This document shows positions 48,559-52,560 of a stretch of 64,000 nt of DNA, piece after piece. Origin of the DNA: Oscillospiraceae bacterium (lineage in GTDB: Bacteria > Bacillota > Clostridia > Oscillospirales > CAG-382); assembly GCA_015064485.1 (NCBI GenBank), contig SVSD01000004.1, forward strand, positions 1 through 64,000, given 5' to 3'. Position 1 is the stretch's first letter. Every line of letters begins with the position of its first letter. The notes beneath the pieces are model-generated. The model made no database searches. It saw only the letters and a list, made by a program, of their open reading frames with translations, and was not told the origin of the DNA. Both the position numbers and the translations under genes were made by a program.

Positions 48559-49332
48559 ATGAAAAAAGTTCTTTCTATACTTTTGGCATCTGCGATGATA
48601 TCCGCTCCCATGGCAATAAGTGCAAATGCCAAAGAATGCGGAATAAAAAATGCGCTCGAAAAGCTTATAGGTACTTACTCTTGTGAAAGTTTTGACTGTG
48701 AAAGCCTTGATCTTAATTCCCTTGCAGACAAGCTTAAAAATTTTTCGTGGATAACAAAAGGGTCGTGTGGTGCAAATAATGATAATTCCGGTTGTGCAAA
48801 CGGTTCGTGTAACGAAAATACAGGAAACTCCGATTGTACAGACGGTTCGTGCGGCAGCGAAAATGATTCATGGGAAAACATCTTTGTCGTTCCGCCGGAA
48901 ATTTTTGAAACACCTGAAATCGAGCAAGAAGAGATTCCAGATACTTCTCAGTCAGACGACAGCCTTGAACAGCAGGTAATTGATCTTGTAAACAAATACC
49001 GCGCTCAAAACGGGCTTTCTTCCCTTTCCTACGATAAGGGGGCCGCATGTGCTGCAAGTATCCGTGCAAAAGAAACCGAAACTTCTTTTTCACACACCCG
49101 TCCCGACGGATCAAGATGCTTTACTGCCCTTGATGAATGCGGAGTTTCGTATTCCGGTGCAGGCGAAAACATAGCTATGGGTCAGACAAGTGCCGAATCG
49201 GTTATGACAGACTGGATGAATTCCGAAGGACACAGAGAAAATATTCTCAATCCCAATTTCAAAAAGATCGGCGTCGGCGTACATAAAGGTTCCGACGGAA
49301 GATTGTACTGGGCTCAGATGTTTATTTATTGA
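48559..49332 (+). CDS. Secreted CAP/SCP-domain protein (YkwD-like) with Cys-rich linker
   Basis: 257 aa; signal peptide; LVNKYRAQNGLSSLSYD, FSHTRPDGSRCFTAL, GENIAMGQTSAESVMTDWMNSEGHRENILNPNFKKIGVG. Confidence 0.93.
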   Translation: MKKVLSILLASAMISAPMAISANAKECGIKNALEKLIGTYSCESFDCESLDLNSLADKLKNFSWITKGSCGANNDNSGCANGSCNENTGNSDCTDGSCGSENDSWENIFVVPPEIFETPEIEQEEIPDTSQSDDSLEQQVIDLVNKYRAQNGLSSLSYDKGAACAASIRAKETETSFSHTRPDGSRCFTALDECGVSYSGAGENIAMGQTSAESVMTDWMNSEGHRENILNPNFKKIGVGVHKGSDGRLYWAQMFIY

Positions 49333-50860: not shown

Positions 50861-52093
50861 ATGAATTTCAATTTTAAAATAGTTCAGAACAAAAAAATAT
50901 TCTTCATTATCTCAGCAGTTATTATCGTTCTCGGAATGATTTCTATGATAGTTCGTCCTTTCTACCTTGATGTAGACTTTGCGGGCGGTACTGAAATAAC
51001 CTACTCCATCAAAGCGGAAAGCTTTGATGCCGCAAAAGAATCGTCTGTTATAAACGGTCTTGCAAGAGAAGCTCTTTCAGCTATAGGCTCCGATTCCGAC
51101 CTTATTAACAACGCTATTGCATCCGACGGCGAAGTTATCATCCGTTCAAAGGAACTCAACGAATATGAAATTGATGCAATCGACGCTGTTTTGAAGGAAC
51201 ACTACGGCGATCCCGTAGCGCCTTTGAGAACAATCGAAGAAATCGTAGCTGCTCTTGAAACAGCGTCTGCTGAAGAAACAGCACCTGCTGAAGAAACAGC
51301 ACCTGCTGAAGAAACAGCACCTGCTGAAGAAACAGCACCCGTTGAAGAAACAGCTCCCGCTGAAGAAACAGCTCCTGCCGAAGAAACAGCTCCTGCTGAA
51401 GAAACAGCTCCTGCTGAAGAAACAGCTCCCGCTGAAGAAACAGCACCCGTTGAAGAAACAGCACCCGCTGAAGAAACAGCCCCCGTTGAAGAAACAGCTC
51501 CTGTTGAAGAAACACCCGAAGCTGAAGACCAGCCCGAAGAGCTCGTTACAAGAGTTGGTATGGACAGCGTCGGTGCTTCTGTGAGCAAAGACCTCAGAAA
51601 TGCTGCTGTTATTTCTACAACAATCGCTGTAATCCTTATGCTTGTTTATATCACAATAAGATTCCAGTTCAGTTCAGCTGTTGCTGCTGTTATCTGCTTG
51701 TGTCACGATATCTTCATCGTTCTTGCTGCTTACTCTATTCTCCAGATTCCTGTAAGCTCAAGCATTATTGCCGTTGTTCTTACAATTCTCGGTTACTCGA
51801 TCAATGCAACAATCATCATCTTTGACCGTGTAAGAGAAAATGTTAAGCGCAATCAGTCAAACACATTCGCAGAAAATGTTAACATCAGCATCAACCAGAC
51901 TCTTTCCCGCTCTATAAACACAACAATAACAACACTTCTTACAATCGGACTTATCTACATCCTCGGTGTACAGTCAATAAAGGAATTCGCACTTCCTCTT
52001 ATCGTGGGTATCATCTCGGGTCTTTACTCATCCGTATTCCTTGCAGGTTCTTTGTGGACAACCTTCAAGAAAAAGGGCAACAGAGTAAGATAA
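50861..52093 (+). CDS. secF: Protein translocase subunit SecF with hexapeptide-repeat insertion
   Basis: DVDFAGGTEITYSI, GYSINATIIIFDRVREN; 14 x (A/V)EETAP-type repeat between them. Confidence 0.95.
   Translation: MNFNFKIVQNKKIFFIISAVIIVLGMISMIVRPFYLDVDFAGGTEITYSIKAESFDAAKESSVINGLAREALSAIGSDSDLINNAIASDGEVIIRSKELNEYEIDAIDAVLKEHYGDPVAPLRTIEEIVAALETASAEETAPAEETAPAEETAPAEETAPVEETAPAEETAPAEETAPAEETAPAEETAPAEETAPVEETAPAEETAPVEETAPVEETPEAEDQPEELVTRVGMDSVGASVSKDLRNAAVISTTIAVILMLVYITIRFQFSSAVAAVICLCHDIFIVLAAYSILQIPVSSSIIAVVLTILGYSINATIIIFDRVRENVKRNQSNTFAENVNISINQTLSRSINTTITTLLTIGLIYILGVQSIKEFALPLIVGIISGLYSSVFLAGSLWTTFKKKGNRVR
51269..51514 (+). repeat. 18-bp in-frame minisatellite (gctgaagaaacagcacct), about 13.7 copies
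   Basis: Direct inspection: 14 EET units at 18-bp spacing with mostly synonymous or A/V differences. Confidence 0.97.
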
Positions 52094-52160: not shown

Positions 52161-52316
52161 TATATCCGTTTTAAAGTGTTTTTATGTTTGTTGAGCAAGT
52201 TTTACAGGTGTTGTGAACAAAGCTGATATATAAGCCTTATATAGCTTTATATAACTTCAAAACGGCACAAAGTTAAAGAATTACTAAAAAACACAGTATC
52301 GTGTATTTATACAAAT

Positions 52317-52348
52317 AAAAAAAGCTCCGTAAAACGGAGCCTTTTTTA
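52317..52348. terminator. Bidirectional terminator, serves the small ORF on the minus strand
   Basis: aaaaaaagctccgtaaaacggagcctttttt. Confidence 0.8.
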
Positions 52349-52357
52349 GAAATTAAG

Positions 52358-52495
52358 TTATACTGTCCACTTGTCAGAGAAATTGTTGTCATCTGCAGAG
52401 AGATTAGCGAGAGGTTCGTTAGCACTTGCTGTGATAACATCTTCTACTTCGTATTCAACAACTTCAATTACAGGACTTACGTACATTTCTTTCAT
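52358..52495 (-). CDS. 45-aa small ORF of unknown function (MKEMYVSPVIEVVEYEVEDVITASANEPLANLSADDNNFSDKWTV)
   Basis: Not in ORF track (under 60 aa); RBS ggaaggtgg upstream of ATG, dedicated promoter and terminator. Confidence 0.75.
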   Translation of the reverse strand: MKEMYVSPVIEVVEYEVEDVITASANEPLANLSADDNNFSDKWTV

Positions 52496-52531
52496 GAATA
52501 TACCACCTTCCTGAATAACTTATTTGTGATA

Positions 52532-52560
52532 ATTATACCACAAGGTTTTTCATTTGTAAA
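52532..52560 (-). promoter_or_regulatory. SigA-type promoter for the 45-aa ORF
   Basis: Minus strand TTTACA, 17-bp spacer, TATAAT. Confidence 0.75.

Follow-up and report, generated by a model that had tools for sequence, protein, structure and literature searches.

A conserved 45-codon gene of an Oscillospiraceae bacterium probably encodes a precursor peptide of the LPP type that is modified in trans

We analyzed a small gene in a window of 64,000 nucleotides from the genome of an Oscillospiraceae bacterium (the window is this whole stretch, and all plain coordinates below refer to it), and we propose that the product of this gene is probably a precursor of the LPP type (LPPs, the Linear Polyphosphorylated Peptides, are RiPPs); the gene has its own promoter, and the peptide would be modified in trans. 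The gene is conserved, its product belongs to a peptide family that co-occurs and clusters with a PqqD-type machinery, and the enzymes of this machinery carry intact motifs. This reading extends the LPPs to the Clostridia, with a divergent leader. It also means that precursors are often encoded apart from their enzymes, so that cluster-based mining would miss such genes.

Architecture and neighborhood of the gene

The gene and its signals are arranged as follows.

52555-52560, minus strand: -35 hexamer TTTACA, read from the sequence
52532-52537, minus strand: -10 hexamer TATAAT, preceded by TG, with a 17-bp spacer to the -35 hexamer
52503-52512, minus strand: ribosome-binding site AGGAAGGTGG, conserved in the genus
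52358-52495 including the stop, minus strand: 45-codon gene of a putative LppA-like (LPP-type) precursor peptide, from the sequence, its orthologues and the family profile
52316-52348, minus strand: terminator of a hairpin and T-run, with the stem GGCTCCGT/ACGGAGC and similar stems in relatives

A preliminary description of this region had proposed the promoter, the ribosome-binding site, the 45-codon frame, the terminator and a strongly acidic product, and all of these are borne out. The two promoter hexamers match 11 of the 12 consensus positions, the ATG at 52495 is followed by 45 codons up to the stop at 52358-52360, and a hairpin with a T-run stands at 52348-52316, compared with a mean of 0.1 terminator-like sites in shuffled sequence. 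The peptide has the sequence that was quoted, with 10 acidic and 2 basic residues. Because its flanks are a convergent secF and an mntP-like gene that ends about 165 bp upstream, the 45-codon gene looks monocistronic. Its shortness alone would be enough for many annotators to omit such a gene.

Two other genes of the same neighborhood were noted. In the secF-like gene (50861-52093, plus strand), (A/V)EETAP repeats extend over 51150-51590; such a long run is unexpected in SecF, and the other frames are open there too. The gene at 48559-49332 encodes a secreted protein whose C-terminal region is similar to a CAP/SCP domain and which has an insert rich in Cys, Asn and Asp.

Conservation and selection

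Whole-genome searches detected an orthologue of the 45-residue gene in each of the five genus genomes, with the AGGAAGGTGG-type ribosome site kept and, in four of the five, a terminator stem of the CTCCGT..ACGGAG type. The relatives that could be named are metagenome-assembled genomes (MAGs) of Oscillospiraceae and other Clostridia, from ruminant gut and other sources. In its own genome (1.6 Mb) the peptide gene was found once, and neither whole-genome nor profile searches detected a paralogue there. Lack of conservation of the frame had been named beforehand as one outcome that would refute the gene, and the frame is conserved across these orthologues. The dN/dS comparison that had been called for at the same time gave, between the window and its relatives, a leader dN of only 0.11-0.23, whereas dS was about 0.9 or saturated. 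Because of this difference, we judge from the substitution rates that the 45-codon gene is real and that its protein is under strong purifying selection. The window copy has the most diverged tail in the genus (tail dN of 0.43-0.70 against relatives) and could be losing its role; nevertheless, the D-N..F.D.W pattern of the tail is kept among the genus orthologues despite the lower conservation of this part. Searches with the peptide gave one sub-threshold, chance-level match in Pfam and no match in NCBIfam.

A peptide family with a conserved leader and a variable tail

A profile built from nine sequences detected members of the family in 29 of the 63 genomes of the family-level sample, and a profile covering 25 N-terminal positions detected them in 59 of 247 order genomes and 24 of 216 class genomes. 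The family peptides have 35-75 residues; they share the N-terminal pattern Y..P[E].E...F..EDIIT.S but vary in their tails, which are acidic and poor in Cys. The median tail length is 19 residues, 97% of the tails are net acidic, and Cys is almost always absent from them. An LPP precursor is expected to have 35-200 residues, a conserved N-terminus and a highly variable C-terminus, and this is what we observed in the 45-residue peptide and the family alignments. The predicted parts of the window peptide are as follows.

52430-52495, minus strand: presumed leader, residues 1-22 (MKEMYVSPVIEVVEYEVEDVIT), the conserved block, compared with PMC13381572
52472-52483, minus strand: codons of Y5-V-S-P8, the YxxP motif and expected binder of the PqqD-type recognition element, from the alignment and PMC13381572
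52424-52426, minus strand: codon of Ser24, candidate phosphorylation site two residues past the conserved Thr, from conservation
52361-52429, minus strand: presumed core ASANEPLANLSADDNNFSDKWTV, the variable acidic tail with the conserved DN..F.D.W, from the alignments

The Tyr and Pro of the YxxP motif are almost invariant among 38 sequences, and residues 5-10 of the window peptide, YVSPVI, agree with the RRE-binding motif YxxPx[L/V/I/F/A]. A W/Y/LxxP/L/I motif is a widespread recognition sequence (PMC12710340). Ser occupies the position of Ser24 in 47 of 59 family members, and a Ser lies anywhere within T..T+4 in 58 of the 59. We infer that the leader is cleaved from the core near residue 22, with an uncertainty of 1-2 residues.

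In two paralogous precursors (L060:3001-3162 and L061:4001-4159), the tail contains about three copies of a D-N..(Y/W) unit (GDNDFDVGNAYWNDNNYNVGDSDWN), an arrangement that resembles tandem cores. The W and F of the tail also led us to consider a radical-SAM cyclophane or WGK crosslink. This candidate was rejected: WGK varies even among the sequences of the genus, and in the adjacent clusters we noted no precursor with a radical SAM enzyme immediately next to it.

Co-occurrence and clustering with the PqqD machinery

The starting clue to the modifying system was a single paralogue that adjoined genes for a PqqD-type protein, an HprK-like kinase and a signal-peptidase-like protein. With gene presence called by thresholds, in genomes that are mostly drafts and not independent where they are related, a discrete PqqD was found in 24 of 29 peptide-bearing genomes as against 13 of 34 others at the family level (p=7e-4), and in 54 of 59 as against 35 of 188 at the order level (p=1e-24). 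Kinship among the genomes is answered in part by collapsing the order sample to genera, in which 40 of 42 peptide-bearing genera had the protein (p=1e-15), and by replication at the class level, in which the genomes were mostly different and the counts were 24 of 24 as against 63 of 192 (p=4e-11).

The two genes also lie close together. Within a limit of 3.5 kb, the peptide gene was found 0.9-3.3 kb upstream of PqqD on the same strand in 12 order-level genomes, where 0.12 were expected by chance, and 10 of these 12 lay outside the search seed. Four further genomes at the class level had the peptide upstream of PqqD, giving 16 genomes in total. The operons comprise, in a varying layout, a gene for a large secreted protein, one or more peptides, HprK-like, PqqD and SpI-like genes, an ABC exporter and NTP_transf_5. 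Their gene order is not fixed, they often include an additional gene of the VanZ-like, SLH or lipoprotein type, and ABC permease-ATPase (MsbA-like) genes are often present in the clusters of relatives.

A different PqqD-domain protein of about 119 residues lies directly beside an OPT-type oligopeptide transporter at L100:8274-10572 (contig C15 of the window's own genome, G000) and at L108 and L163. No precursor was recognised beside these pairs.

The enzymes of the same genome and the proposed pathway

The window's own genome has a single precursor, on contig C21, and a single VanZ/HprK/PqqD/SpI operon, on contig C24 (locus L099), where it adjoins capsule-type genes. Given that these lie on different contigs, modification in trans is most likely. 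The distance between them is at least about 110 kb, so that in this genome the precursor stands outside the cluster; because it is not beside the enzymes, the link between precursor and enzymes rests on co-occurrence and homology. The preliminary description had guessed at a RiPP-like peptide and had remarked that no maturation enzyme was adjacent. The guess is supported by the YxxPx[I/L] leader and the PqqD co-occurrence. The remark is correct for the neighborhood, but it is no evidence against a RiPP, because the enzymes exist on contig C24.

The HprK-like kinase (L099:9531-10241) carries LHSS, CGTGKST and NDDKP, which make up the complete His-Lys-Asp-Asp set when compared with PMC13381572 and PMC9266682. 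In the SpI-like peptidase (L099:8764-9255), GTSM, VLHR and CGDN make up a complete Ser/His/Asp set; an SpI-like relative in L112 matched TIGR02228 below the cut-off. When the PqqD-type protein of C24 was compared by spacing with the published residue numbers of LppB, its N35, Y62, D72 and F76 corresponded, with a constant offset of 2, to Asn33, Tyr60, Asp70 and Phe74, by which LppB contacts the YxxP motif. Among relatives, the Asn is present in 19 of 19 and the Asp in most. An NTP transferase (PF14907, NTP_transf_5, E=2.8e-43) is encoded at G000:C13:46165-46884, inside a polysaccharide locus and unlinked to the operon.

The LPP family, reported in Nature Communications in May 2026, is defined by this gene set and a YxxP leader, and its type system is lppAKBSDN of Paenibacillus alginolyticus (PMC13381572). 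In that system the recognition element binds YxxP, the kinase adds several phosphates to Ser3 of the core, and the SpI-like peptidase cleaves the leader with the assistance of the recognition element (PMC13381572). By analogy with this characterised system, we infer that the leader of the window peptide (residues 1 to about 22) would bind the PqqD-type recognition element of C24 through Y5-x-x-P8-x-I10, that the neighboring HprK-like kinase would phosphorylate the conserved Ser just past the leader, probably Ser24, and that the leader would then be cut off by the SpI-like Ser/His/Asp peptidase that this operon also encodes. More speculatively, the NTP_transf_5 protein of C13 may decorate the phosphate, and the linear acidic core may be exported and act on the surface of the cell, where large secreted proteins would probably be its partners.

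Comparison with known systems

The present system resembles the LPPs in its small precursor with a YxxP leader and a variable tail, in its HprK-like kinase, discrete PqqD-type recognition element and archaeal-type signal peptidase, in the lack of a cyclase, in its NTP transferase and MsbA-like exporter (the latter in the clusters of relatives) and in its frequent siting in polysaccharide loci. However, the clostridial leader reads YxxPxIExxxFExEDIITxS, compared with YxxPxVLxHQxIxFETxxS in the Bacilli; the HQ and FET parts are absent, and the spacing from Tyr to Ser is one residue longer. The precursor is also encoded at a distance from the enzymes, a genome can contain as many as 17 scattered precursors, and precursors are paired with large secreted proteins, whereas the main text on the LPPs names no Clostridia and describes precursors inside clusters (PMC13381572). 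Judged by these features, most of which agree apart from the full leader motif of the Bacilli and a precursor within the cluster, membership of the LPPs is most likely.

The HPr-rel-A system of PEP-CTERM/exosortase organisms is also similar to the present one, with an HprK-like kinase and PqqD in polysaccharide-producing genomes. However, scores against its models (TIGR04352 and TIGR04353) were far under the curated cut-offs, and no link to PEP-CTERM was seen.

We also considered whether the gene encodes a lasso precursor, with a YxxP leader, a Thr near the cleavage site and a tail to be threaded by a lasso cyclase. Among lasso peptides, the phosphorylated ones (paeninodin, pseudomycoidin and the Bsf family) share a YxxP/WxxP leader, a discrete RRE (B1), an HprK-like kinase with His-Lys-Asp-Asp and an NTP transferase with our system; kinases and NTP transferases tailor lasso peptides too. 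The window leader carries YxxPx[LI] and also a Thr, which stands 17 residues after the Tyr, compared with 15 for the Thr at -2 in lasso numbering. The top curated matches of the PqqD protein are lasso chaperones, and its best solved relative is TbiB1, a lasso recognition element. However, the B2-type transglutaminase-like peptidase (PF13471, Transglut_core3) is absent in the genus and exceeded the cut-off in 0 of 63 family genomes, and none was recognised by eye among the open reading frames of the adjacent clusters, in which the SpI-like peptidase takes its place. Lasso membership fails because this B2 peptidase is missing. The tails also lack a conserved ring-forming Gly1/Asp-Glu8 spacing. 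A lasso precursor is thus very improbable. A chance open reading frame, or a leader peptide of the attenuator type, would agree with the shortness of the gene and with a stop followed by a terminator. This reading, however, is already refuted by the conserved frame and saturated synonymous change and has practically no likelihood: the family is spread through the order and class, there is no downstream gene to attenuate, and Rfam gave sub-threshold matches only, with no leader RNA at the gathering score.

Pairing with secreted proteins

The final product and biological role of the LPPs are stated as unknown (PMC13381572). The positions of the clostridial precursors give a concrete, testable hint at this role. 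Using simple ORF calling, we found that 16 of 22 independent (non-seed) order-level members were preceded by a gene of 400 aa or more whose end lay under 220 bp upstream, which was true of 28 of 201 genes in the background (p=1e-8). One class-level genome (G458, L226-L242) has 17 YxxP peptide genes at dispersed sites, almost every one of them directly after the gene of a secreted protein; its kinase-PqqD-SpI-NTP operon is elsewhere in the genome, which has two PqqD loci. This suggests that the LPPs of Clostridia may serve surface proteins. Literature searches yielded no paper linking PqqD with exopolysaccharide or surface proteins.

The large secreted proteins that are paired with peptides have common C-terminal domains that are not in Pfam. 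A type-1 pattern, GLRF ... A.PYI...dG...YG....Sv.d.A, has 10-20 matches per genome in the window's genus and was located as follows.

L042, L043, L044, L050, L051, L055, L056, L067, L068, L166, L172: type-1 C-terminal domain proteins
G000:C10, C13, C7, C24, C22, C17: type-1 C-terminal domain proteins of the window's own genome

Of the 247 order genomes, 25 carry the type-1 domain; every one of these has PqqD, and 20 have the peptide. The window's own genome has ten matches; none is beside the peptide, and seven lie no more than 43 residues from the C-terminus of their protein. One peptide per C-terminal-domain protein is ruled out in this genus, in which the 10-20 domain matches stand against 1-4 peptides per genome.

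Tentatively, the clostridial LPP machinery could be a central system for dispersed precursors, each paired with a secreted client that is marked by a C-terminal domain. The phosphorylated and perhaps glycan-decorated peptide might then anchor or link these clients to surface polysaccharide, with a logic analogous to that of sortases or exosortases, and the window gene might be the lone stand-alone peptide for about ten clients. We regard this as possible but doubtful. The same pairing, including the 17 dispersed peptides of one genome, would also be expected if the peptide were an unmodified small companion of secreted surface proteins, such as a chaperone or assembly factor, with an indirect link to PqqD. 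This is unlikely: it leaves the near-obligate co-occurrence with PqqD and the clustering with kinase, PqqD and peptidase unexplained, the peptide has no signal peptide of its own, and the conserved part is the recognition motif while the tail varies, whereas a working domain would show the reverse. A signalling or regulatory peptide from the same or another modifying system, which is a question of function rather than of biosynthesis, would suit a small, acidic, monocistronic gene with its own promoter and terminator, and mature LPPs have no known function. However, no receptor, regulator or exporter adjoins the window gene, and most relatives come straight after a surface-protein gene, in an arrangement that suggests co-transcription, so that we consider such a role quite unlikely.

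For the LPP-type precursor that we prefer, the divergent clostridial leader, the dispersed orphan precursors and the pairing with secreted proteins bearing non-Pfam C-terminal domains look new. A second C-terminal domain, ending in LVKALYrYsAasDAY, was observed in secreted proteins directly upstream of YxxP peptides at L047, L048, L159, L162 and L168.
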